A DNA stretch of 43,088 nucleotides, from positions 1 through 43,088 of the forward strand of contig JADFPO010000019.1 in NCBI GenBank assembly GCA_022562295.1. Direction: 5' to 3'. Positions within the stretch are counted from its first letter, which is position 1; every line of letters begins with the position of its first letter. The position numbers were made by a program, and so were the translations under genes. This DNA is from Gemmatimonadota bacterium. GTDB taxonomy: Bacteria > Gemmatimonadota > Gemmatimonadetes > Gemmatimonadales > GWC2-71-9. The notes beneath the pieces were generated by a model, which worked only from the letters and a program-made list of their open reading frames with translations, was not told the DNA's origin and did no database searches. Positions 5,608-33,785 of the stretch are shown one piece after another.

Positions 5608-7419
5608 TCAGTAGTCGACCGGCCGCAGATAGTACTCGCCGATCGCGGTCTGGCTGACCATCGCAACGGTGGGCAGACGACGCTTCCAATGTGTGGACTC
5701 CAATCTCTTCTGCACAACGGCAATCTCGTCGCTGTCAAATCCCCCTGCCGCGACCGCCTCTGCCGTGTCACCCCGCAGCAAGTGCCACAAAATAAGGTCC
5801 GCACGCGCATAGGAGATGCCCAGATCCTGTTCGTCTGTTTGCCCGACAATGAGATCCGCTGTGGCGGGTTTCGAGACGATTTCCTCAGGCACACCCACGT
5901 GGCGGGCCAGAGCCCACACCTGGGTCTTGAAGAGGTCGCCCAGCGGATTTACGGGAGGGGAATCGTCGGCGTGCCATGTGAAGTATCCCAACAAACGCTC
6001 GGTCTTGTTTCCGGTTCCTATCGGCAGCGCCGTGTGGGCCGCGGAAAGGTCGAACAGCGTTATCATCCGAACTCGGGCCATGACGTTACCCAACCGGGTC
6101 TCGTCTGGGGGCGAAGTGGTCGCCCCGGCATAGCCATCGACCGCTGCCGTGATGTCAATTGTTTCGAATGGGATGCCCAGCAGCTCCGCGACCAAAGCGG
6201 CATGTTCGAGGCTCTCCTTGCTAGACGATGCGTACGGCATCGCAACGCCAATCACGTTCTCTTTGCCGAGGGCTCGGGCGGCGAGGAACGCCGTGAGAGA
6301 CGAATCTACGCCGCCGGAGAGACCCACGATGCCCGTCTGGAAGTTCCGACGAATCGTGAACTCCTCGCGCAGAAATGCCACGAGCCAGCGCTCCAGCAGT
6401 TCGGGGTCGATCGCGAGTGGATCGGACTCGGCACCTTGCTCGGTTACACTGAGGTTTGCCAACGCGGTATCGCCGGCAGGGACGGTCGCACTCCCGTCAT
6501 CAAAATCGTGTTCTTCCTGCCCGTTTGGGTGCAACGAGTTCAGCAGGTTGGGCATCTCCGCGCGAAGGGCCGACAACAACGGCTGCTCCGCCCTGACTCG
6601 GGTCACCTCGCTATCGCTGAGTTCCGCAACCACGAGCGACTCCTCGAACAACGGACCTCTGGTCACGACTTCGCCATCGGGCCCTACGATCACCGATGCA
6701 CCCGGGAAACCCTTGCCACCCTCGAAGCCAACCAGCTGCGCCATGAGGACGTACACGCCGTGCTCCGCCGCGATGGTCCGCGCGAGACGCTCCCACCGCT
6801 CGAGGCTGGCCGGGATGGACGGCTCTCCGTCCTCTTGCACCACGACGCGAGCCGCGGTCGCACCCCGCGCGGGTGATGCGCTCGGGACGAAGAGGAAACG
6901 GGCTCCGTCAAGCGCCGCGAGAGTGGGCATGAGCGAATGCCATGCGTCCTCACAGATCACGATTCCCGCGCGGCCCCACCTCGTATCGAACGCCTTCACT
7001 CCGCTCCCGGGCTGGATGAAACGGCGCTCATCGAATACTCCGTAGGTCGGGAGGAACACCTTACGGTGAATGTGGCGAATCTGCGCGTCGTCGCCTCCCA
7101 GCGACGCGTACATGGCCGAATTGTGATAGTGGTTCTTGTATTTCTCGTAGAACCCCACCACCACGTCAAGCGGTGGGGCCTGCGATTCGCGGTGTTGGAG
7201 CTGCAGATCCTCGAACAGTGTTCCGGCCGGCACGGCTACGTCGCGCACACCACCCTCGAGGAAATACCCCGACGTTGCCGCTTCCGGAAACACAAGGATG
7301 TCAGGTGGCGCGGCGCGGTTCGCTGCCTGAGTGAAGACGGCTCCCATCCGTTTCACGTTGGCAGCGTACTGAGCCTTGGCCGGGCGGAACTGGACGATAG
7401 CCACCTGGGGATTCGGCAT
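5608..7419 (-). CDS. nadE: Glutamine-dependent NAD+ synthetase
   Basis: Makes NAD+ from deamido-NAD+, ATP and glutamine. The N-terminal nitrilase-type glutaminase domain has the catalytic triad context: Glu46 in VFPEAATSGY, Lys in HRKVFLPTYG and Cys in VICEDAW. The C-terminal synthetase domain has the ATP-binding P-loop SGGVDSS near residue 370 and the family stretches LGNVMARVRM and GTGNKTERLLGYFT. At 603 residues it matches two-domain NadE proteins. It may be co-transcribed with the thioesterase and patatin below it. The 88 nt between it and the upstream tupA-like gene is GC-rich and could contain a promoter or a partial terminator. Confidence 0.95.
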   Translation of the reverse strand: MPNPQVAIVQFRPAKAQYAANVKRMGAVFTQAANRAAPPDILVFPEAATSGYFLEGGVRDVAVPAGTLFEDLQLQHRESQAPPLDVVVGFYEKYKNHYHNSAMYASLGGDDAQIRHIHRKVFLPTYGVFDERRFIQPGSGVKAFDTRWGRAGIVICEDAWHSLMPTLAALDGARFLFVPSASPARGATAARVVVQEDGEPSIPASLERWERLARTIAAEHGVYVLMAQLVGFEGGKGFPGASVIVGPDGEVVTRGPLFEESLVVAELSDSEVTRVRAEQPLLSALRAEMPNLLNSLHPNGQEEHDFDDGSATVPAGDTALANLSVTEQGAESDPLAIDPELLERWLVAFLREEFTIRRNFQTGIVGLSGGVDSSLTAFLAARALGKENVIGVAMPYASSSKESLEHAALVAELLGIPFETIDITAAVDGYAGATTSPPDETRLGNVMARVRMITLFDLSAAHTALPIGTGNKTERLLGYFTWHADDSPPVNPLGDLFKTQVWALARHVGVPEEIVSKPATADLIVGQTDEQDLGISYARADLILWHLLRGDTAEAVAAGGFDSDEIAVVQKRLESTHWKRRLPTVAMVSQTAIGEYYLRPVDY

Positions 7420-7507
7420 GCCGGAAAATAGCCGGGCGGAAGCGGTTTGGGGCCCTCAGCGGGCAGGGGGCCGACTACGGCCTTCCCGCCGTCCTAACGG
7501 CCTGCGC

Positions 7508-8341
7508 CTAACGGGCCGCCGGCACCGCGTCCGGCAGGAACAGCGATCGGCCGTGCTCTTCCCGCCCGAACCGGTAGATGACGGACTGAATGTCCGGGGA
7601 GCGCAGGAACGCACTCAAAGCTCTGCCGCCTTCGGCGTTTACCCACGGGAATCGCTCGGGATTGGCGACAACCACATGGTAGGGGTTCAGGAGGGCTGGA
7701 TCGTCCTCGACGAAAATGCGCAGATCCAGGGGCGCTTTATGAGCCAGCAGCGTTCCAATGTCGCTAATCGTGTAAGCCCGCAGTTCGTTCGCGATCTGGA
7801 GGGTAGCGCTCATTCCCTGCCCGGACTCTCTGTACCATTCTCGGTCGGTCTGCAGACCCGCGCTCCGCCACAACGCCGCTTCTTTGACATGGGTCCCAGA
7901 CTGGTCGCCGCGTGACACGAACAAGGCCCCCGCCCTGCCGATGACCTCCAGCGCGGCCGCCGCGGTCACCGCCTCGCGAGCGCCGGCTGGATCGGCTGTC
8001 GGGCCCACGAGCACGAAGTGATTGTGCATCAACGGCTCGCGCTCGATCCCGTAACCGTCCTCGACGAACCGGCGCTCGCCCTCCGGATCGTGTAGGATCA
8101 AGACATCCGCATCACCGCCGCGTCCGAGGGCCATCGCCTGACCGCTTCCGACCGCAATCACGCGAACCGTGACACCAGTCGTTCGCTCGAAACGCGGTAG
8201 CAGGTGAGCCAGCAAACCTGCATCTCTCACCGATGTCGTGGTGGCGAGGATCACGTCCGAGCGTTGTTGGGCTGCTGCCGGCACGGCTAGCACGGCAACC
8301 AGCATCATGAGGGCAGGGCTGGGTCTTCCAAGCGCGAGCAT
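7508..8341 (-). CDS. TupA-like tungstate ABC transporter substrate-binding protein, orphan
   Basis: Periplasmic oxyanion-binding protein. The mature part begins with ILATTTSVRDAGLL and carries IAVGSGQA, DADVLILHDP and VLVGPTADPAG, all characteristic of TupA (tungstate) rather than ModA. A Sec signal peptide is clear, with cleavage probably after VPAAA. The ORF opens at 8401, but the ATG at 8341 directly precedes the signal peptide and has TAGGA about 7 nt upstream, so I prefer it. No TupB permease or TupC ATPase is adjacent; its neighbours are a response regulator (24-84 nt upstream depending on start) and nadE. It might serve a transporter elsewhere or act as a ligand sensor. Confidence 0.85.
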   Translation of the reverse strand: MLALGRPSPALMMLVAVLAVPAAAQQRSDVILATTTSVRDAGLLAHLLPRFERTTGVTVRVIAVGSGQAMALGRGGDADVLILHDPEGERRFVEDGYGIEREPLMHNHFVLVGPTADPAGAREAVTAAAALEVIGRAGALFVSRGDQSGTHVKEAALWRSAGLQTDREWYRESGQGMSATLQIANELRAYTISDIGTLLAHKAPLDLRIFVEDDPALLNPYHVVVANPERFPWVNAEGGRALSAFLRSPDIQSVIYRFGREEHGRSLFLPDAVPAAR

Positions 8342-8425
8342 GTCGTTCATCCTAGCGTCCGTGACCAACGTCCGAAACGGGCTCGACGACGTCCTGCACA
8401 CCCAGCATCCAACCGACTCGATTGG

Positions 8426-9043
8426 CTAGAACCTTCCCTGCCCCCGGTCCGGGGGTCTAGGCACCGGACGGAACGGTGCGTCATCGACCTCCAACACCGT
8501 ATCCTGCGGATTCAGTGGCACCGGAATCGGCGCGCCCTCGGGACCCGGTCGTCCGCCTCCAATGAAAGACCCCAGAGCAACCGACGCCGCGACCATCAGC
8601 GTGAACAGGATTGCTGTCATTACGTTGCGTTTGAAGCTCGGTGTGATGCGGGATCGGAGCTCAATGTTCTCGCGGTTGAGCGATGCCTTCTCCGCGGCCT
8701 TCTCCACAGCCGCCTCGAGGTGGGATAGCTCGATCGGCTTGGTGAGAAAGTTCTCCGCACCGTGGCGCATCGCCTCCACGGCGTTCTCGATTTCGCTGTC
8801 GCCGGTGAGCATGATCACCATCGGCCGCTTCGGACGAAGTTCTTCCAACACGTTGAGGCCGCTGATGTCCGGCATGTGGAGATCCAACACCGTCACGTCC
8901 GGCGACACCCTGTGGAAGGTTTTGATTCCTTCACGGCCGGTGAGGGCCGAGAACGTTTGATACCCCCGACTCTCGAAGTACTTGTTCAGTACCCGAATGA
9001 TGCCTTCGTCATCATCAATGAAGAGGATTCGACGTGCCGTCAT
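8426..9043 (-). CDS. Response regulator receiver with C-terminal membrane helix
   Basis: A 205-residue protein with a canonical receiver domain at residues 1-120: acidic pocket D10-D12, phospho-acceptor Asp54 in VLDLHMP, switch Thr80 and Lys102. This is the type found in NtrC-like regulators. There is no AAA+, DNA-binding or enzymatic output domain. A short charged helix (about 110-130) leads instead to a hydrophobic segment at 142-161 that looks like a transmembrane helix, followed by a Gly/Pro-rich tail of about 44 residues. If the helix inserts, the receiver would be tethered to the membrane. Its ATG overlaps the DUF72 stop (ATGA). No histidine kinase is adjacent. Confidence 0.85.
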   Translation of the reverse strand: MTARRILFIDDDEGIIRVLNKYFESRGYQTFSALTGREGIKTFHRVSPDVTVLDLHMPDISGLNVLEELRPKRPMVIMLTGDSEIENAVEAMRHGAENFLTKPIELSHLEAAVEKAAEKASLNRENIELRSRITPSFKRNVMTAILFTLMVAASVALGSFIGGGRPGPEGAPIPVPLNPQDTVLEVDDAPFRPVPRPPDRGQGRF

Positions 9044-9870
9044 GTTGCGTTTCTAAATGAGAAGAATTGCGTTTGGGTCCTGATCGCCATCGGTTCTACG
9101 AACGCCTGTCCGAGAAGGCGCTGCATAGCTCGTACACTGTGCGGACTGTGGCCCTGGTACTGATTGTTGAAATACCCATACACAGTTTCGGCGCTCTCGG
9201 CAAGCAGCTTTAGCGTGTCCGCCCAGATCGCCAGCTCCGACTCGCAATCCCGCTGCGGATGGGAAAAATTCGTAAACCGCACATCCGAACCCATCCAACG
9301 CACATATGAGAAATCGGCGGTTGGCTCGGCGGCGGCCTCCAGCATTCGTGAGCGTCGTACCCAACGGCCATCTACCAAGGTTAGTGCAACATTGTGGTCG
9401 CGCAACGTTGTGAGCGTTTGCTGGTCCAGCCAGCCCGGGTGTCTGAACTCCACGGCCCACCGGTGGTTGCGGGGCAACCTCGCCACGAAGTTCCGCAGCG
9501 CCAGTCTGGTTTCCGGTGTGGGTACGAAATCTGGCGGTAGCTGCACGAGCATCGGTCCCAACGAGTTTCCGAGCTGGCGCACCCGGTCGACGAACTTGTC
9601 CAAAGTAGCTTGGCAGCCCACCAATCGACGACCGTGCGTTATCTCTTGTGGCACCTTGAGGGAAAAAACAAAATCGCTCGGTACTTTCGCTAACCACCCG
9701 CCGATAATCGGTTCGGCCGGAATCGCATAGAACGTTGCGTCGACCTCGAGCGTAGAGAACATCCTGCCGTACCACTGGAGCATATCCGCCTTGGGCGTGT
9801 CAGGCGGATAGAAGGGCCCCACCCACGCTCGGTAGCTCCAGTTCTGAGTACCAAGGTGAAAGGCCGACAC
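9040..9870 (-). CDS. DUF72 (YecE-like) family protein
   Basis: TIM-barrel protein of the DUF72 family, whose biochemical role is not established. The 276 residues show the family signature at the N-terminus (FHLGTQNWSYRAWVGPFYP, then TLEVDATFYAIP), the conserved FSLKVPQEITH, MLVQLPPDF, WAVEFRHPGWL and the C-terminal YGYFNNQYQGHSP. The start is a GTG that overlaps the stop of the upstream SnoaL-like gene by one base, and its own stop overlaps the response-regulator start. The three genes therefore appear translationally coupled. Confidence 0.92.
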   Translation of the reverse strand: MSAFHLGTQNWSYRAWVGPFYPPDTPKADMLQWYGRMFSTLEVDATFYAIPAEPIIGGWLAKVPSDFVFSLKVPQEITHGRRLVGCQATLDKFVDRVRQLGNSLGPMLVQLPPDFVPTPETRLALRNFVARLPRNHRWAVEFRHPGWLDQQTLTTLRDHNVALTLVDGRWVRRSRMLEAAAEPTADFSYVRWMGSDVRFTNFSHPQRDCESELAIWADTLKLLAESAETVYGYFNNQYQGHSPHSVRAMQRLLGQAFVEPMAIRTQTQFFSFRNAT

Positions 9871-10286
9871 TACGTTTCTGGCGATGCGGTCTTGCGATCC
9901 CAGTACATCCGCATTTCAGAGATTCTCCCCTCCTCCGTCTCGCAGTAGAGGGCCCCGCGGACGTCCATCCACTCGCCACTTCGTCTCCGCCGAAACCGGC
10001 AGCGGAATTCTACGCTGAACCATGGTCCGGCCACGAAGATCTCCCCCGCTTTGAACGCGATCTCCGCCTGCTCCCGGGGGATGTCCTTCCAATATTCCGC
10101 GATCGCATCGCGGCCACGAAGCGGGTTGGCGAACGGGTCTGGCCGAAAAACCGCGTCGTCGGTAAATACCCCAGCCATGCGGTCGCTCTTGCCTTTTTCC
10201 CAGCCCTTTCCGAACTCGTCGATGAGCGCGGCATATTGCCTCTTGGGTTCGAGCGGTCGAGCTTCAGGCTGTGATGTCGCAATCAA
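9870..10286 (-). CDS. SnoaL-like / NTF2-fold protein
   Basis: A 138-residue protein of the NTF2-like superfamily. The sequence follows the nuclear-localised SnoaL-like pattern: a first helix (YAALIDEFGKGWEKG), a strand pair with FTDDAVFRPDPF, the RGRDAIAEYW motif, and a C-terminal sheet ending in RISEMRMYWD. Members include ketosteroid-isomerase-like enzymes and ligand binders, so the activity cannot be named. The start is TTG with GGAG about 7 nt upstream, which supports this unusual start codon. It is the first gene of the coupled SnoaL-DUF72-regulator run and is divergent from the nucleoside hydrolase. Confidence 0.78.
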   Translation of the reverse strand: MIATSQPEARPLEPKRQYAALIDEFGKGWEKGKSDRMAGVFTDDAVFRPDPFANPLRGRDAIAEYWKDIPREQAEIAFKAGEIFVAGPWFSVEFRCRFRRRRSGEWMDVRGALYCETEEGRISEMRMYWDRKTASPET

Positions 10287-10371
10287 GTGCTCTCCTCGGA
10301 GTCACATCTCCAATCAAGCTTAGGACCGTGGCCTCCCCGACGCCAGGCTTCCGGCACCCCGCAGAACGGCC

Positions 10372-11334
10372 GTGAGATGGCCGCGGCGCGTGGTGATCGA
10401 CACGGATCCAGGCATCGACGACGTTGTCGCGCTCGCGCTCGCTGCGCGGTGTCCCGAAATCGAGATCCTGGCCGTCACCACAACTTATGGAAACGCGCCG
10501 CTGACCGTCACAACTCGGAACGCCCGAACGATTCTGCGGCTCAGTGCCCGTAGGGACATCCCCATCTTCCCAGGAGCCGACCGGCCTCGCTCCCGTGCCC
10601 TTGCCACCGCGCCGGAGACGCATGGCGTCTCCGGTGTGGGCTACGCCCCGGTCGATCCTCCCGCACCGATCGTCGTCCCTGCCAGGCCCGCCGTGCTGTG
10701 CGACGTGCTCAATATGGTTTCTCGCCCGGTCACGCTCGTCACGCTCGGTCCCCTCACGAACCTCGCGGCTGCACTCGAGAAGGACGAGGCATTGGTGAGA
10801 CGGCGCGTCGCCCAGCACATCGGCATGTTCGGTAGCCTCCGCGAGCGAGGAAACACCAACCGATGGGCCGATTTCAACGCATGGTCCGACCCCGAGGCAG
10901 CAGACATGGTGGTGCGCTGCCAGCTCCCTACACACATGGTTGGACTCGACGTCACCAGACAGATGACCGTATCGTCGAGTGAAGTGGACGACATCGGTCA
11001 ATCGTCGAGCAAGTTGGCGCGTTGGCTGGCAAGCGCGATGCGGTTCTATGTGGAATTCCACCGCAGTCAAGAGCGGCTCGACGGGTGCGTGATCAACGAC
11101 GTGCTGACGATCGGGGAGTTGATTGCTCCCGGCATGCTGCGCTTCGAGAAGGTCCCGATTCGCGTCGACCTTGACGAAGGCGAGCATCGCGGTCATACAA
11201 GGGGGGGCCCGGGAGAGTCCTCCCGTCCGCTCCAGGTGGCGACCGACGTGGATGTGTACGCGATGCGCCACCTACTGACGCGCGTGTTTGGCCGAAGCTG
11301 GTTCGAGCGATTTCACCAGGAGGATCTAGCATGA
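10372..11334 (+). CDS. Inosine-uridine preferring nucleoside hydrolase family protein
   Basis: Predicted ribonucleoside N-glycosidase. The calcium-binding signature DTDPGIDD lies close to the N-terminus (residues about 10-17), followed by VTTTYGN and LGPLTNLAAAL, all conserved in IU-nucleoside hydrolases. The length of 320 residues is normal. The start is GTG (VRWPRRVVIDTDPG). It overlaps the downstream dehydrogenase by 4 nt (ATGA), so both are made from one transcript. The base preference cannot be deduced. The 85-nt divergent gap to the SnoaL-like gene should hold both promoters. Confidence 0.92.
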   Translation: MRWPRRVVIDTDPGIDDVVALALAARCPEIEILAVTTTYGNAPLTVTTRNARTILRLSARRDIPIFPGADRPRSRALATAPETHGVSGVGYAPVDPPAPIVVPARPAVLCDVLNMVSRPVTLVTLGPLTNLAAALEKDEALVRRRVAQHIGMFGSLRERGNTNRWADFNAWSDPEAADMVVRCQLPTHMVGLDVTRQMTVSSSEVDDIGQSSSKLARWLASAMRFYVEFHRSQERLDGCVINDVLTIGELIAPGMLRFEKVPIRVDLDEGEHRGHTRGGPGESSRPLQVATDVDVYAMRHLLTRVFGRSWFERFHQEDLA

Positions 11335-12278
11335 GCGATGCACAGGTCCGAGTCGCGGTAGTCGGGACCGGCGACATCGGCCGCGGCTGGGCGGCGTTAA
11401 TCGTGGCAGCGGGGTGGCCGGTTGCACTCTACGACAGCAGCGAGTCTGCCCTCGACGGAGCCCCCGCCGAGATCGCCGCCCGAGCCCGGGCGTTGGTCGA
11501 TTTACACCGAGCGGATGCCGCGACCGTAGAAAACGGCATCCGGCAATTGACGCTCGGCCGGAGTCTCCTGCAGGCATGTCGCGACGCACAGTGGATCATC
11601 GAGGCCACACCCGAGGACCTCGGCGCGAAGCAAAAATTGATCCAGTCGTTCGAGAGCGTCGCACCGGACGCCCGGGTCGTGTCCAGTTCGTCCACGGCGG
11701 TCACCACCAAGGACCTCGTGGCCCGCGCGGTGCGGCAAGACCGCTGCATGATCGTTCATCCGCTCAATCCTCCGGAGCTGATTCCGCTCGTCGAGGTGGT
11801 GCCCGGACCCGCCACCGACGGCACACTGACCGAGCTCATGAAGGGATGGCTCCGCGCACTCGGTCGCATTCCGGTGGTGGTCAAGAAACCCGTGCTCGGC
11901 AACGTGGTCGGCAGGATCTCAGCAGCCATGTGGCGTGAGGCCATCGATCTGGTCCTCAACGGAGTGATCGATGTAGACGACCTCGACCGTGCGGTCTCTC
12001 TCGGCCCGGCCCTCGGATGGGCGGCCGCCGGACCGCATCTCACCTACCATCTAGCGGCGGGCGACGGCGGCGTCAGAGTTTTCTTCCAGCAGCTGCTGCA
12101 TACGTTCGAAAATATTTGGGCCGATCTCGCCGATTGGAAGCAACTCGATCCCGATCAGCAGCACGCATTGATTCACGACGTCGAGCGCGCTTACGAAGGG
12201 AAGCTTTCGATGATTCGGGGAGCGCGGGATCGCCGACTCGCGGCGATTCTGAAAGGACTCGAAGATGCACGTGGCTGA
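11331..12278 (+). CDS. 3-hydroxyacyl-CoA dehydrogenase family (lambda-crystallin / L-gulonate dehydrogenase-like)
   Basis: NAD-dependent dehydrogenase. The N-terminal Rossmann motif is VAVVGTGDIGRGWA (residues 7-20). The region from IIEATPEDLGAKQKL through SSSSTAV and IVHPLNPPELIPLVEVVPG is the 3HCDH signature with the catalytic His in VHPLNP. The C-terminal domain includes VVKKPVLGNVVGRI and a DDLDRAVSLGPALGWA stretch like that of lambda-crystallin and L-gulonate 3-dehydrogenase. At 315 residues it is a stand-alone enzyme without a hydratase domain. It is coupled to the nucleoside hydrolase (ATGA), which may hint at a sugar or nucleoside catabolic role rather than fatty-acid oxidation. Confidence 0.88.
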   Translation: MSDAQVRVAVVGTGDIGRGWAALIVAAGWPVALYDSSESALDGAPAEIAARARALVDLHRADAATVENGIRQLTLGRSLLQACRDAQWIIEATPEDLGAKQKLIQSFESVAPDARVVSSSSTAVTTKDLVARAVRQDRCMIVHPLNPPELIPLVEVVPGPATDGTLTELMKGWLRALGRIPVVVKKPVLGNVVGRISAAMWREAIDLVLNGVIDVDDLDRAVSLGPALGWAAAGPHLTYHLAAGDGGVRVFFQQLLHTFENIWADLADWKQLDPDQQHALIHDVERAYEGKLSMIRGARDRRLAAILKGLEDARG

Positions 12279-12324
12279 CGGCGAGGCGCCCTGACCACGA
12301 TGACGCTTCCCACCCAAGCAACGC

Positions 12325-27418: not shown

Positions 27419-28681
27419 GTGGATCAAACAGAGCTGTTTCCTCTCCCAACCGCAGTGTCACCGTCGCCGAGTTTGCGGGTGCTCGACACCCGCATGCGTG
27501 GGGTGACCTTTGTGGAGCATCGGGTCAAAGCAATCGTGAACTCGCCCGAGAGTACGGGGATGGGATTCTGGTCAATCAACCCGTACATCGGGTGCGAGTT
27601 CGGTTGCACGTATTGTTATGCGCGATACGCCCACCGATATGCTATCGAGCGGATGCATGGCAATGGACAAATATCAGATGCCGACCTCTCGCGATTCCGC
27701 GAGTCAGAAAAGTGGGAGGTATTCGAACATCACATTTTCGTTAAGCAGCGAGATGCGGTTCTTGCAGCGCTCGAGCGAGATCTCTCCCGCATAAGACGAC
27801 GCCAAGCCGGTGGCCAGATTCATCCTATCGTCATCGGCACCGCCACCGATCCATATCAGCCGGCCGAACGACAATACCGCATTACACGTGCCGTACTCAC
27901 GCGACTGCGGGAAGAATCGAACCTCTCCATCGGCATCATCACAAAGAGTCCCCAAATCTGTCACGACATCGATGTACTCCGTGAACTGCAACGCAACAAC
28001 CGCGTGAGCGTGTACATCTCGTTGATCACAACAGACACACGGTTGATCAAGCTCTTTGAAGCACGTTCACCGATGCCTCACGTTCGGCTCAAGGCGTTGA
28101 AGCGATTGACGGATGCGAACCTCAACGCCGGTCTCATCGTCGCACCCGTGTTACCGGGAATCACCGACACCGTCCCACAAATTCGCGCGCTCGTTCAGGC
28201 ACTGAAAGACGCGGGAGGTCGGTTCGCCCACCCATCACCATTGCGGCTCTATCCCGCACTACACCGCGGATTCTTACCGATCATCGAGAAGAACTTCCCC
28301 GAGCTCTATCCGAAATACCGCCGCGCGTATCGTGGCGCCGGCATCGTACCCAAGAGGTACACTGACGCGATTCTCAATCGCTTCCGCAAAATCGCGAATG
28401 AGTTCGGAATTTCCGTGAACGATCCGATGATGGAGGCGATAGGGCGGGCAGGCGGGCAGGCGGGCGGGCGGGCAGACGGTAGGACGGTACGTCCATTACC
28501 GTCTGACCGTCGGGATGAGGGGCGGAGCGGCGGGGGCCCGCCGGGTTGGGTAGTGGGGTGGTGGGGGCCCGTCGGGATGGGCAGGGCGGCGGTGGGGACC
28601 TCCTCACCAGCGATCGCGCCGTGTGCGTCTGGATCCCACTGTTCGCACTTCGGGCAGAAGAGCGGCGGCGACCCGAGCTGA
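27419..28681 (+). CDS. Radical SAM protein (SplB/Rv2578c-like) with repeat-derived C-terminal tail
   Basis: Radical SAM enzyme of about 340 core residues. The [4Fe-4S] motif C-x3-C-x2-C appears as CEFGCTYCYARYAH (about residue 58), followed by VIGTATDPYQPAERQY, SIGIITKSP and APVLPGITD, all typical of the Rv2578c/spore-photoproduct-lyase-like group. The start is GTG. The core ends near NDPMMEA; the remaining 80 residues (GRAGGQAGGRADGR and onward) are a translation of a G-rich minisatellite, and the ORF then runs 61 nt into imuB. The original stop was probably lost to the repeat insertion. It takes the place that imuA has in classical imuA-imuB-dnaE2 cassettes. Its substrate is unknown. Confidence 0.85.
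   Translation: MDQTELFPLPTAVSPSPSLRVLDTRMRGVTFVEHRVKAIVNSPESTGMGFWSINPYIGCEFGCTYCYARYAHRYAIERMHGNGQISDADLSRFRESEKWEVFEHHIFVKQRDAVLAALERDLSRIRRRQAGGQIHPIVIGTATDPYQPAERQYRITRAVLTRLREESNLSIGIITKSPQICHDIDVLRELQRNNRVSVYISLITTDTRLIKLFEARSPMPHVRLKALKRLTDANLNAGLIVAPVLPGITDTVPQIRALVQALKDAGGRFAHPSPLRLYPALHRGFLPIIEKNFPELYPKYRRAYRGAGIVPKRYTDAILNRFRKIANEFGISVNDPMMEAIGRAGGQAGGRADGRTVRPLPSDRRDEGRSGGGPPGWVVGWWGPVGMGRAAVGTSSPAIAPCASGSHCSHFGQKSGGDPS
28445..28606 (+). repeat. Composite minisatellite, copy 1 (8-bp and 31-bp periods)
   Basis: At least four 8-bp units of the form CGGGCAGG start at 28445, 28453, 28461 and 28469, grading into CGGTAGGA. Then a 31-bp unit headed by GACCGTCGGG, GCCCGCCGGG and GCCCGTCGGG starts at 28505, 28536 and 28567, with a partial fourth head near 28597. 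The rest of each 31-bp unit is G-run-rich and could form G-quadruplexes on this strand. It covers the radical SAM tail and ends about 15 nt before the likely imuB start. The same layout recurs inside imuB. Confidence 0.85.
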
Positions 28682-30120
28682 GGGGAAAACCGACAGCGCT
28701 GTTGTCGGCTGAAGACACACGGCGGCTGTGGCAGGTTTCCTCCCGTGCACATCACGATGGCGTAAAACCCGGGATGACCGTGAGTCAGTCGATTGGCCTC
28801 TGCTCCGCACTCACGCTGGTGGAAGCCGACCCAGTCCATTACGACGAGCTGTTTTCCCGACTTTTACAGGCACTCAGCGATGTCAGCCCCGTCGTTGAGC
28901 CTGGGAAGTTGGGGTGCGTATACGTCGGCGTCGATGGATTGGATGGGTTGATCGGCGAGCCGAACAAAGTGCTTGCTGTGATTGATGCGGTGGTCAGGGA
29001 AGTGTGGTATGGCGAGTTGAAGCGACGGTGGGGAGTTGGACGGCCGAAGACGGTCAGGGACGGTCGAAGACGGTCGAGGACGGACAGGCGGGCAGACGGG
29101 CAGGCGGGCGGACGGGCAGGTGGACAGACGGGCAGAAGAGAGGACGGTCAAAGACGGTCGAAGACGATCGAGGACGATCGAGGACGATCGACGACGGATA
29201 GATCGCCTCGACCGTCGGGAAGGGCTGGTGAGGGGAGTGGGACCGTCGGGCTGGGTGGGGAGGTGGAAGGGAACCGTCGGGCGGGGGGTGGTGCTGGGCG
29301 GGACCGTCGGGTGGTGTGGAAGTTGGGATGGGCTAAAGGCAAGTTCCCCGCCTGGGTGGCCGCAACACGCGCCAAACCCGGCGAGCCCGTGGTAGTCAGT
29401 GAAAACGGGCTCGCTGAGTTTCTCTCGGCGCAGCGCATCGGCGCGCTGCCGCTCGAGCGTGATACCCACCGACGACTTTGGCAGCTCGGACTTCGGAAAC
29501 TGAGTGACCTCGTCGCGCTTCCCGAACAAGCCGTCGCATCGCAGTTCGGCCGGGAAGGACGCATGGCATGGCGTCTCGCCGCCGGGATGGTTTCCGAACC
29601 CGTCATCGGCAAAGAGTCACCACAACCGATTCGGGCCTCGATGCATTTTCCGACGCCCATTGCCGATCGAGGGATTCTCACCAACACAATCGGAAAACTC
29701 ACCGAACAAGCATTGCGGCATCCTCAACGCATAGGCTGGCGCGTCCGCTCGGTACGTGTCCGCGCCGCCTTGGAACACGACCGTTCCTGGATGATCGATG
29801 CGACACTCAAAGATCCATCGGCCGATAGAAAACACATCATGGCTCCGCTCATCGTGAAGCTCGACCAGACCCCACCCACCGGCACGGTCGAGCATCTCAT
29901 GGTGGAGTTCACCGCTTTCACACGTGGCACCAAGGAATTGCAGCTATTCGCACGCGATGCCGCTGCCGTTGCACGGTCCGGCCGGCAGCGCGCGTTGCGC
30001 TGGGCCGCACACGAAATCAGAACCCGTCTCCAGCGTCCCCTACTCCACCATATCATCGAGGTACACCCATGGTCGCGAATTCCCGAACGCCGGTACGCAC
30101 TCATCGACTACGACCCCTGA
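28621..30120 (+). CDS. imuB: ImuB-like Y-family polymerase homologue with internal repeat insertion
   Basis: Catalytically dead Y-family protein that, in known mutasomes, bridges DnaE2 and the sliding clamp during translesion synthesis. From the GTG at 28621 it has 499 residues: CVWIPLFALRAEERRRPELRGKP at the N-terminus, a palm segment YVGVDGLDGL in which the usual catalytic DE pair is absent, then KFPAWVAATRAKPGEPVVV, a helix-hairpin-helix region (LRKLSDLVALPEQAV) and a little-finger-like C-terminus. Residues about 143-230 are encoded by a minisatellite and are highly charged and probably disordered. They sit between a palm helix and the strand before KFPAWVAA, where close relatives have a short loop. 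The frame is preserved. The upstream extension to 28546 in the track is repeat translation. Confidence 0.85.
   Translation: MCVWIPLFALRAEERRRPELRGKPTALLSAEDTRRLWQVSSRAHHDGVKPGMTVSQSIGLCSALTLVEADPVHYDELFSRLLQALSDVSPVVEPGKLGCVYVGVDGLDGLIGEPNKVLAVIDAVVREVWYGELKRRWGVGRPKTVRDGRRRSRTDRRADGQAGGRAGGQTGRREDGQRRSKTIEDDRGRSTTDRSPRPSGRAGEGSGTVGLGGEVEGNRRAGGGAGRDRRVVWKLGWAKGKFPAWVAATRAKPGEPVVVSENGLAEFLSAQRIGALPLERDTHRRLWQLGLRKLSDLVALPEQAVASQFGREGRMAWRLAAGMVSEPVIGKESPQPIRASMHFPTPIADRGILTNTIGKLTEQALRHPQRIGWRVRSVRVRAALEHDRSWMIDATLKDPSADRKHIMAPLIVKLDQTPPTGTVEHLMVEFTAFTRGTKELQLFARDAAAVARSGRQRALRWAAHEIRTRLQRPLLHHIIEVHPWSRIPERRYALIDYDP
29049..29311 (+). repeat. Composite minisatellite, copy 2 (10-, 8-, 10- and 31-bp periods) inside imuB
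   Basis: Four 10-bp units (GACGGTCAGG, GACGGTCGAA, GACGGTCGAG, GACGGACAGG) occupy 29049-29088. Six 8-bp units of CGGGCAGA type occupy 29089-29136. Six more 10-bp units (GACGGTCGAA/GACGATCGAG) occupy 29143-29202. The 31-bp unit headed by GACCGTCGGG follows at 29210, 29241, 29272 and 29302. The head GACCGTC is the reverse complement of the 10-bp unit's GACGGTC, so the array can fold back on itself. No unit length is a multiple of three. Confidence 0.9.
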
Positions 30121-30350
30121 ATCTTCCGCGAGCCGTCAGTGTGGTCTTGAACGAGCGCGGACTTCCCATTGCGATTATTCGCGACGGGAAGCGCAAAGAG
30201 GTTGAGAAAATCGGTGAGATCTGGCGCGTCGATGACGAGTGGTGGAGGGATCCGATCGCTCGCCGGTACGTGGAAACTATCCTCGAAGGTGGTCGGCGTC
30301 TCGTTGTGTACGAGGATCAGATCACGGGCGAGTGGTTTGAACAACGGTGA
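30069..30350 (+). CDS. DUF6504 family small protein
   Basis: A 93-residue protein of the kind found between imuB and dnaE2 in many mutasome cassettes (DUF6504). The conserved core is PRAVSVVLNERGLPIAI, then IGEIWRVDDEWWRDPIARRYVETIL, and a final strand VVYEDQITGEWFEQ. The WRVDDEWW motif is the clearest mark. It overlaps the 3' end of imuB by 52 nt in another frame, so translation is likely coupled. Its role is unknown; the context implies a structural or regulatory part of the translesion complex. Confidence 0.8.
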   Translation: MVANSRTPVRTHRLRPLNLPRAVSVVLNERGLPIAIIRDGKRKEVEKIGEIWRVDDEWWRDPIARRYVETILEGGRRLVVYEDQITGEWFEQR

Positions 30351-30358
30351 GTATAAAG

Positions 30359-30441
30359 TAAGTCGTGAGTAGTGAGTGGGGTGAGAGTGGTATTGCAACT
30401 CTGCGACTCACTTACTCACGACTTACTACTCACTACTCACC
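30359..30441. repeat. Long hairpin with 7-bp tandem units between DUF6504 and dnaE2
   Basis: TAAGTCGTGAGTAGTGAGT (30359-30377) pairs with ACTCACTTACTCACGACTTA (30406-30425) apart from one bulged base, around a 28-nt loop. The right arm continues into ACTTACT-ACTCACT-ACTCACC, a 7-bp tandem, to about 30441. CACGACTTA is seen once more at 30454. In the mRNA this stem would sit 46 nt before the dnaE2 ATG and could act as an attenuator, a processing site or a partial terminator; it could equally be a dispersed repeat. Confidence 0.65.
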
Positions 30442-30470
30442 TTCACGCCAAGGTCACGACTTAATCGGCC

Positions 30471-33400
30471 ATGTACGTAGAGCTACACTGCCACTCCGCA
30501 TACTCCTTTCTCAACGGCGCTTCCCAACCCGACGAACTCGTCATGGAGGCACAGGCATTGGGGTATCCCGCACTCGCACTGACGGATACCAATGGGCTGT
30601 ATGGCTCGATGGCATTCGCACAAGCAGCCAAGCACCTCGGCATCCAGGCGATCACCGGCGCGTACGTCACGCTGCTGGACAATTCTCACGTCACGTTGCT
30701 AGCCGAAACCGCACAGGGATACTCCAACCTCTGCCGCCTCATCACAGAAGCCCATCTGGGTAGAGAAGATCGATTCGATCCGCGTCTCGACCTCGCCTCC
30801 CTCGAAGAGCGTCAGGAAGGTTTGATCGTGCTCTCGGGAAGCCGGGATGGGTTGCTTCCAACTACTCTCGCACAACGAGGATTCTCTACGACGCGGCGCG
30901 TTGCCGACCGCTGCCGCGCTGTATTCGGCAAAGATCGATTCTTCGTAGAGCTACAGCGCAATTCCGTTCAGGGAGACCGTGACCGCACGCGAGCACTAAC
31001 GGCTATCGCCGACTCGGTGGGACTGAACGTCGTCACAACGGGCGATGTGCACTATCACCGCCGAGGTCGCTATCAGCTTCATGACGTCCTCGTCACGATA
31101 AAGAACCGCACGACGCTGGACGGCTCGCATGCCGTACGTTTACCCAACAGTGAATTCCATCTTCGGTCTCCCGAAGAAACAGAACGAATATTTCACGACC
31201 GGCCGGACGCCGTTGCCAACACGCTCGTCATCGCGGAGCGTTGCGCCGGTTTCGACCTCACCAAAGATCTCGGCTACACCTTTCCGGATTTTCGCAGTCG
31301 CGAGGAACGGACCGCCTCCGCTCCGAACGCTCTCACCCACCTCTGCCAGGCCAAACTCGAAGAGTACTACCCACTCGATTCGCCACATCGTCGCGAGGCG
31401 GAGAGCCGACTTGAAAAGGAATTGCGGCTCGTCGCACATCACAAACTCTGCGGATTCTTTCTCGTTTACCGTGACTTGATGGATCTCGCGCATGAGGTGG
31501 CGGCCGATGTGCGACGTGGCTCGCGCCGGGCGCACGGCAACTTATTACCCGGGCGTGGTCGTGGGTCGTCTGTTTCCTCGATCATATGCTACTTCCTGGG
31601 GCTCTCCCACATCGACCCGGTCGCCAACGACCTGTTCCTGGGCCGCTTCTTGAACGAGACCATTGCCTCCGTACCGGACATCGATCTCGATTTTCCGCGT
31701 GAGATCCGCAAGGAACTGATACGCAGGGTATACAAACGATATGGAGCCGAGCACACTGGTCTCGTGTGCACGTTTCCGACATATCGCATGCGCTCTGCCG
31801 TGCGCGAGATCGGGAAGGCACTCGACTTGCCGTCCGGCGAACTCGAACAGGTCGCCAAGTTGGCGAGCCACCACTCCTCTCCGCGTGAGCTGGCCGCGGA
31901 ACTCGAGAAACTGCCCGGCTTCGCCGGCCGGTCCAAGGCACCGCTGTGGCGGAATCTCTGTCAGCTCGCAGTGGAAATTGCCGGGCTCCCACGACACATC
32001 TCCCAGCACGTAGGCGGCATGATCATTTCCAGCAGACCGCTTGTCGAGATCGTGCCGTTGGAGATCTCGGCCATGCCGGATCGGGTTCTCTGTCAGTGGG
32101 ACAAAGATTCGTGCGACGATGCGCGTTTCATCAAAATCGACTTCCTCGCACTAGGGATGCTTTCGCTCGTCGAAGAGTGTGTCGAACTGGTCTCGAAAAA
32201 AGAGGGTAAACCACCAGACCTTAGCCGCATCGACTTCGAAGACGAGAAGGTATACGACTCTATCTGCAAGGGCGATACGGTGGGAGTCTTTCAGATCGAG
32301 AGCCGCGCGCAAATTCAAATGTTACGCCGCTCTCGGCCTCGTAACTTGAATGACCTCGCCATCGAGGTCGCCATCATCCGACCGGGCCCCATCGTCGGCG
32401 GTGCAGTGAATCCTTACGTCAGACGCCGCGAAGAGGAGCGCCAGGCATTGGCGGCAGGCCGCACTTACAGGCCTCCGTTCGATCACCCTCTCCTCGCCGA
32501 GGCGTTAGGCGAGACACTCGGCGTCATCCTCTACCAGGATCAGGTCCTTCAGGTGTGTCAAGCGCTCGCCGGATTCACCGTCGGACAGGCCGAAGAACTC
32601 CGCCGAGCGATGAGCCGTCGCCGCTCACGCGAACTCATGGAGGACTTCTGGGAGGCGTTTCGCGACGGCGCGGCGGCACGCGGTGTCTCCGAGAGCACCG
32701 CACACCATGTCTTCGAACAGGTCGTGGCCTTCTCGGAATTTGGTTTCCCGAAATCTCACGCTCACGCTTTTGGGCTGCTGGCTTATCAATCTACCTGGCT
32801 CAGATTCTACCATCCGGTGGAGTTCTATACGGCTCTCTTCAACAACCAACCGATGGGTTTCTATTCGCTCGACGTCCTCACTCGAGATGCGAAACGACAC
32901 GACGTCGATGTGCTTCTGCCGGACGTCAATGTGAGCGATGTGTACTGCACGGTCGAGAGTCGGTCTCTGGCTGAGACACCGGCACTACGCGTGGGCCTTG
33001 CATTCACTCGCGGTTGGGGACTGGACGTCACCGAAGAAGTCGTCGTCGAACGCGAGCGCAACGGGCCGTTCGCCAGTCTTGGTGATCTCGTGCGTCGCGC
33101 GCCGCCGAAGCTTTCGCGAGAGGCGATAGAGAACCTCGTGTGGGTAGGTGCTTGCGACTCGTTCGGCCTCACGCGGCGCGAGCTGCTGTGGCAGGTGGGG
33201 CTCTGGTTGCCCCCGAAGACGGAGCGATCGCAAAAACATCGCGCACGGCGCCAGCTCGAGCTTCCTCTCGATCACCCGTACCAGAATCTGCGGTTCGGTG
33301 GAATGGCCGGCCGGGAGCGACTCCTGGCGGAGTATCAGATGCTGGGATTCGCGGCCAGCGGTCATCCGTTCTCGGTAATGCAGGAGGCATTGCCTCCGGA

Positions 33401-33785
33401 CCGAGTGACCAGTCTCCAGCTTGCGGAACTCGAGCACGACTTGGAAGTCCAGGTTGCTGGGCTGGTGGTGGCACGTCAACGTCCCGAGACCGCCAAGGGT
33501 ACGTTTTTCGTTCTGCTCGAAGACGAGAGTGGTATGATCAACGTGATAGTTCGGCCGAAGATCGCCGAGCGGGATCGGGTCGCCTTGCGGGGAGAGCCTG
33601 TGTTGTGGGTTCGGGGACGGTTGGCCAGGGACGACGGTACGTTCAACATCATTGCCGACGAGTTGCGTCCACTCAAGGTGTCCATGCCACGCATGCCGTC
33701 GTTGAGTGCGCAGCCCCAGTACTCACCCCACAAGTTCTTGCGAGCCCTGAGGCTTCACCCACCGGCCGCCAAGAGCTGGGGATGA
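30471..33785 (+). CDS. dnaE2: Error-prone DNA polymerase III alpha subunit DnaE2 (ImuC)
   Basis: Translesion polymerase of the C family, 1104 residues. The N-terminal PHP domain starts at once with YVELHCHSAYSFLNGAS. The palm has GRGRGSSVSSIICYFLGL and the catalytic acidic motif VPDIDLDFP (about residues 401-409), and QWDKDSCDDARFIKIDFLALGML supplies the third Asp. VGVFQIESRAQIQML, DQVLQVCQALAGF and FPKSHAHAFGLLAYQ are family hallmarks. A C-terminal OB domain covers EVQVAGLVVARQRPETAKGTFFVLLEDESG. The length and early PHP start distinguish it from DnaE1 (about 1160). It acts with ImuB and is damage-inducible in the organisms studied. No clear Shine-Dalgarno precedes the ATG, and the hairpin upstream may affect expression. 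Confidence 0.95.
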   Translation: MYVELHCHSAYSFLNGASQPDELVMEAQALGYPALALTDTNGLYGSMAFAQAAKHLGIQAITGAYVTLLDNSHVTLLAETAQGYSNLCRLITEAHLGREDRFDPRLDLASLEERQEGLIVLSGSRDGLLPTTLAQRGFSTTRRVADRCRAVFGKDRFFVELQRNSVQGDRDRTRALTAIADSVGLNVVTTGDVHYHRRGRYQLHDVLVTIKNRTTLDGSHAVRLPNSEFHLRSPEETERIFHDRPDAVANTLVIAERCAGFDLTKDLGYTFPDFRSREERTASAPNALTHLCQAKLEEYYPLDSPHRREAESRLEKELRLVAHHKLCGFFLVYRDLMDLAHEVAADVRRGSRRAHGNLLPGRGRGSSVSSIICYFLGLSHIDPVANDLFLGRFLNETIASVPDIDLDFPREIRKELIRRVYKRYGAEHTGLVCTFPTYRMRSAVREIGKALDLPSGELEQVAKLASHHSSPRELAAELEKLPGFAGRSKAPLWRNLCQLAVEIAGLPRHISQHVGGMIISSRPLVEIVPLEISAMPDRVLCQWDKDSCDDARFIKIDFLALGMLSLVEECVELVSKKEGKPPDLSRIDFEDEKVYDSICKGDTVGVFQIESRAQIQMLRRSRPRNLNDLAIEVAIIRPGPIVGGAVNPYVRRREEERQALAAGRTYRPPFDHPLLAEALGETLGVILYQDQVLQVCQALAGFTVGQAEELRRAMSRRRSRELMEDFWEAFRDGAAARGVSESTAHHVFEQVVAFSEFGFPKSHAHAFGLLAYQSTWLRFYHPVEFYTALFNNQPMGFYSLDVLTRDAKRHDVDVLLPDVNVSDVYCTVESRSLAETPALRVGLAFTRGWGLDVTEEVVVERERNGPFASLGDLVRRAPPKLSREAIENLVWVGACDSFGLTRRELLWQVGLWLPPKTERSQKHRARRQLELPLDHPYQNLRFGGMAGRERLLAEYQMLGFAASGHPFSVMQEALPPDRVTSLQLAELEHDLEVQVAGLVVARQRPETAKGTFFVLLEDESGMINVIVRPKIAERDRVALRGEPVLWVRGRLARDDGTFNIIADELRPLKVSMPRMPSLSAQPQYSPHKFLRALRLHPPAAKSWG

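Follow-up and report, generated by a model that had tools for sequence, protein, structure and literature searches.

Gene and predicted protein

The open reading frame at 8426..9043 on the minus strand encodes a protein of 205 amino acids with an ATG start, here called RR-TM; its coordinates, strand and length were confirmed in the 43,088-nucleotide stretch of DNA analysed (the window). The start codon overlaps the stop codon of the upstream DUF72 gene (9040..9870, minus strand; Pfam DUF72, 6.3e-60) by 4 bases as ATGA, and DUF72 is the commonest neighbour of RR-TM in relatives. Downstream lies a gene for a TupA-like substrate-binding protein (7508..8401, minus strand), which matched NCBIfam TupA at 188.9 bits, below the cut-off of 400, and PBP_like_2 at 8.7e-37.

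Response_reg was the sole Pfam match in RR-TM (residues 6-114, E = 3.5e-25, 88.8 bits, with the cut-off at 30.2), and the NCBIfam matches were to the receiver parts of larger families. The receiver domain was placed at residues 5-116 (8696..9031, minus strand) from Pfam, structural matches and low dN/dS. The receiver residues D10/D11/D12, D54, T80, F99 and K102 are all in place, and with them the acidic pocket, the phospho-aspartate, the T/S and the lysine of PF00072. No second domain was recognised with Pfam, as in single-domain response regulators, and neither the Sigma54_activat AAA+ domain nor the Fis-type HTH of the AtoC/NtrC activators was found in these searches. The initial annotation, which described an apparently functional receiver with D10-D12, D54, T80 and K102 and no output domain, was thus correct on both points.

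The receiver is followed by an extended alpha-5/linker helix at residues 117-139 (8627..8695, minus strand; column counts and AlphaFold), which carries E118, K119, L122 and L129 and has a basic end (K138 R139). A transmembrane helix is predicted at about residues 140-161 (8561..8626, minus strand) from hydropathy, hydrophobic moment and the structural model. The initial annotation had placed it at 142-161 and had allowed that it might be too short or too amphipathic to insert. Since the best 19-residue Kyte-Doolittle mean is 2.13 (residues 144-162) and the hydrophobic moment is just 0.07-0.16 for windows starting at 140-147, the segment appears to be neither. The tail, residues 162-205 (8429..8560, minus strand), contains 11 Pro and 7 Gly in 44 residues, in keeping with its earlier description as Pro/Gly-rich, and is predicted from composition, AlphaFold and charge bias to be extracytoplasmic and disordered. 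It includes a PIPVP motif at residues 172-176 (8516..8530, minus strand).

A structure was predicted with AlphaFold2 from an alignment that combined the window protein with related loci and with distant receivers. The mean pLDDT of the model was 84, with a confident receiver and an unstructured tail. Helix alpha-5 extends over residues 106-133 and is followed by a second, near-continuous helix at 135-161. The top structural matches to the receiver were NtrC1, RssB, NtrX and LuxO.

Distribution of the RR-TM family

To collect relatives, 60 related genomes were searched at the protein level, followed by a profile search of 288 genomes from the same Gemmatimonadota order. In the larger set, 16 genomes matched the family profile at 267.9 bits or above, through the helix and the tail, and the receivers of ordinary regulators of about 450 amino acids reached at most 192.9 bits in the order and 196.5 bits in the phylum sample. 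A second copy in G019, which has no tail, scored 217.8 bits. The copy in G086 is divergent, at 167 bits, and was included for its helix and PIPIP motif. The resulting set comprises 18 proteins from 17 genomes of one order, and the layout is common to all of them save the one tail-less copy. In the phylum sample of 395 genomes, no full-length match was found outside families f1 and f3; the sole extra match, in G436 (196.5 bits), covers just the receiver of a protein of about 450 amino acids. Judged from these matches, RR-TM is a real family restricted to one lineage and not a one-off. Homologues with the same receiver-helix-tail architecture, which the initial annotation had proposed to look for, therefore exist as 17 further proteins, one of them tail-less.

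Conservation and selection

By column counts, D54, T80, K102, E118, K119, L122, L129, G158 and G162 are invariant in all 18 proteins. Position 154 is S or A throughout, giving (S/A)xxxGxxxG in the membrane helix, and position 150 is L in 17 of the 18 and M in the window protein. These positions make up a glycine-zipper-like face, 150-x3-(S/A)154-x3-G158-x3-G162 (8558..8596, minus strand). Because L122 and L129 in the linker lead to this small-xxx-G-xxx-G face, the helices of two RR-TM copies may pair, although GxxxG-type patterns are also found in membrane helices that do not.

Synonymous sites were near saturation and the dN/dS values are accordingly rough: about 0.06-0.14 for the receiver, the lowest of the parts, about 0.16-0.78 for the helix, and, for the tail, 0.17-0.33 in the measurable (unsaturated) f1 pairs against at least 0.5 in f3, so that the tail appears to be under constraint in f1 but scarcely so in f3. 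On these estimates purifying selection is strong on the receiver, and weaker yet present on the helix and the f1 tail. The layout is more than chance, since 17 further proteins share it, purifying selection acts on it, and residues of the linker and helix are invariant. The membrane-tethered receiver put forward at the outset is thus supported, as a prediction, by hydropathy and conservation.

The acidic pocket is kept in 16 of the 18 proteins, with D12 replaced by E in three. D10/D11 are lost in the copies of G001 (G-A-D) and G086 (T-A-D), which keep the helix and PIP(V/I)P, so phosphorylation would not be needed in every lineage. This retention is what would be expected if RR-TM were a scaffold independent of phosphorylation, in which the receiver fold served mainly as a dimerisation module and the anchor and tail were the active parts. 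We regard that as quite unlikely for the family, in view of the acidic pocket in the other members, the presence of D54, T80 and K102 in every one, and the lowest dN/dS in the receiver itself.

In 16 members the mean charges were 5.0 basic and 0.7 acidic before the helix, and 1.8 basic and 2.3 acidic after it. By the positive-inside rule this bias predicts that the receiver is inside and the tail outside, as the initial annotation had suggested. PIP(V/I)P occurs in every tail-bearing f1 member, including those encoded at other loci (G019 C17 and G001); f3 has a different P/I/A/P pattern. The output of RR-TM could lie across the membrane, the reverse of a sensor kinase: the phosphorylated cytoplasmic receiver would rearrange the dimer, and the paired glycine-zipper helix would alter binding by the proline-rich peptide outside. 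The conserved path from L122/L129 to L150/S154/G158/G162, the dN/dS of the f1 tail in the unsaturated pairs and the persistence of its motif at other loci are in favour of such inside-out signalling. The tail, however, is short, predicted to be disordered and variable outside the motif, it is nearly unconstrained in f3 and missing from one G019 copy, and its motif outlives the loss of D10/D11 in G001 and G086; we consider signalling in this direction possible but rather doubtful.

Origin of the receiver

In the receiver tree, RR-TM grouped with an AtoC-like regulator clade of the same phylum (SH-aLRT 99); the tree is based on 125 columns, has many open forks, and leaves it undecided whether RR-TM is ancestral to or derived from that clade. 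The regulators of this clade carry Sigma54_activat and HTH_8, and the members examined occupy another locus, TamB-YegS-regulator. At 1e-35, 12 of 16 RR-TM genomes had no AtoC-like second match, a count that ignores kinship and leaves out the second G102 match. The second match was an AtoC-like protein of about 450 amino acids in G001, G038 and G046, and another RR-TM in G019. On this evidence the nearest relatives without a membrane helix are a separate AtoC-like clade. Homologues lacking the helix, which would have spoken against the anchor, were not found within the RR-TM family itself.

In one such locus, L131, an apparent operon (5633-12308) brings together genes for TamB, a lipid kinase resembling YegS and an AtoC-like regulator (5633-6976). 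Its regulator belongs to the clade nearest to the RR-TM receiver; the genome of the window yielded no comparable one.

The clustering with the AtoC-like clade would also suit a decayed NtrC-type regulator whose frame reads by chance into a hydrophobic stretch. This explanation is contradicted by an architecture kept across two families, by purifying selection and by the invariant helix residues, and we find it scarcely credible.

Genomic context

RR-TM lies in a conserved block of genes: nucleoside hydrolase, SnoaL, DUF72, RR-TM, TupA-like, NAD synthase, thioesterase, patatin and Mla. Upstream of RR-TM, the window carries a DUF72 gene and a SnoaL-like gene (9040-10286), a pair that is conserved in relatives; a literature search on DUF72/YecE gave no usable function for DUF72.

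The initial annotation suggested that tethering could localise signalling to the membrane, for example near the TupA-like protein encoded next to the receiver. This gene lies directly downstream of RR-TM in 9 of the 13 f1 genomes bearing RR-TM, but no TupA match at all was found in three of the 13 (G019, G115 and G116) or in G038, the f3 copies of RR-TM are not adjacent to TupA, and in G001, G009, G021 and G027 DUF72 and TupA stand side by side with no RR-TM in between. Since each gene occurs without the other, the adjacency points to a shared locus more than to an obligate partnership, and the constant association with TupA of a TupABC component was not observed. The suggested tie is therefore weak. 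An accessory role, with RR-TM sensing or modulating tungstate or molybdate uptake from the membrane, could draw on the frequent adjacency and on a TupB/TupC-like pair that has no binding protein beside it and lies on a different contig of the window's genome; given the separations just listed, we think it improbable. That pair, at 2626-4312 of L129 (G000:C76:22000-30000), consists of a permease (BPD_transp_1) and an ATPase (ABC_tran with TOBE), and the adjoining genes resemble molybdenum-cofactor genes by eye. The sole TupA-like match in the genome is the one in the window.

In G027, the gap between DUF72 and TupA contains an inverted repeat like those of mobile elements and, immediately ahead of TupA, the sequence GTGACGAAATACCGGCTGCTGTGA (VTKYRLL*), which resembles the start of RR-TM and may be a deletion scar, although seven residues are too few for certainty. 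The element, of 107 bases (L220, G027:C88, 998-1104), has 19-base terminal inverted repeats CTAGTGTGGTGTCGCCGAA; with at most 1 mismatch, 35 copies of the repeat were found in G027 and none in three relatives. On these features it looks like a MITE, and it lies beside the possible scar.

Two copies lie beside other genes. In G001, RR-TM is off the usual locus and adjoins a DNA polymerase III alpha/DnaE2-like gene (L122, G001:C72, 11182-15172), and the second copy in G019 directly adjoins the start of a gene for a zinc carboxypeptidase (Peptidase_M14; L125, 8722-11084). Elsewhere in the window, a run of genes at 27419-33785 ends with a homologue of a DnaE-type polymerase (the G001 homologue, at L122 11182-14472, was tested with Pfam) and is possibly an ImuB-DnaE2 mutasome.

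No linked kinase, for which the initial annotation proposed a search, was found near RR-TM with Pfam HATPase_c and HisKA. Neither matched on the window contig, nor on the contigs that carry RR-TM in G026 and G125, and in G008 and G115 the closest HisKA matches lay about 27 kb and about 17 kb away, respectively; this result depends on the Pfam searches, as a motif scan caught just 1 of 10 control loci. In the genome of the window, HATPase_c matched 20 times and HisKA 14 times, always on other contigs. Single-domain receivers are known as phosphate sinks and relays, and with kinases encoded elsewhere the anchor might merely hold the receiver near a membrane histidine kinase, where it would compete for or relay phosphate. 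The conserved tail motif and the glycine face of the helix would be left unexplained, and we judge this role unlikely.

Discussion

RR-TM is probably a family of membrane-anchored single-domain response regulators. On balance we lean towards a dimeric, tail-anchored protein that works through contacts with other proteins at the inner membrane, and we infer its membrane insertion, topology, dimerisation, phosphorylation and partner as follows. An AtoC/NtrC-related receiver without AAA+ and DNA-binding parts would stay in the cytoplasm, its alpha-5 running on into a short linker, probably coiled-coil, that leads into one membrane helix. The conserved face of this helix would favour pairing of two copies, and 0-61 residues, depending on the member, would lie outside. 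A kinase encoded elsewhere would phosphorylate D54 and thereby shift the alpha4-beta5-alpha5 dimer surface; the pair would act by touching a partner in the membrane or envelope, with the helix and its PIP(V/I)P tail providing part of the docking. The copies of G001 and G086 without D10/D11 and the tail-less one of the two G019 copies count against this explanation.

Response regulators are treated as the soluble output parts of two-component systems, and the examples of single-domain response regulators known to us are soluble. Like the CheY/Spo0F type, RR-TM has a complete phosphorylation site and lacks an output domain, but it differs in its conserved, predicted membrane helix and outside tail. 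Single-domain response regulators (SDRRs) consist of a receiver without an output domain and act through protein contacts (PMC12471899); for RR-TM such action is our proposal. The closest receiver sequences are those of the AtoC/NtrC sigma-54 activators (receiver-AAA+-HTH_8), which share the extended alpha-5 linker; RR-TM lacks the AAA+ and HTH_8 parts, whereas the sister clade has both (L131, 5633-6976). Like tail-anchored membrane proteins, RR-TM is predicted to have a cytoplasmic N-terminal domain, a single C-terminal helix and a short outside tail, although several tails exceed their usual limit of about 30 residues. Hybrid histidine kinases also have a membrane-associated receiver, but RR-TM has no kinase domains.

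A census of membrane-bound signalling proteins omitted response regulators as a class (Galperin 2005, PMC1183210). Our literature search, whose coverage excluded most subscription papers, turned up no relevant account of a response regulator that is membrane-bound, membrane-anchored or tail-anchored, which leaves novelty unproven. As far as the comparisons above reach, the design is real and unusual: a predicted membrane anchor stands in place of a DNA-binding or enzymatic part and is conserved in related Gemmatimonadota. With its invariant glycine face, and an outside motif in one family, this lineage would extend the response regulators by a membrane-bound class, and RR-TM offers a small protein for exploring if signalling by a receiver is possible inside the membrane or through it.
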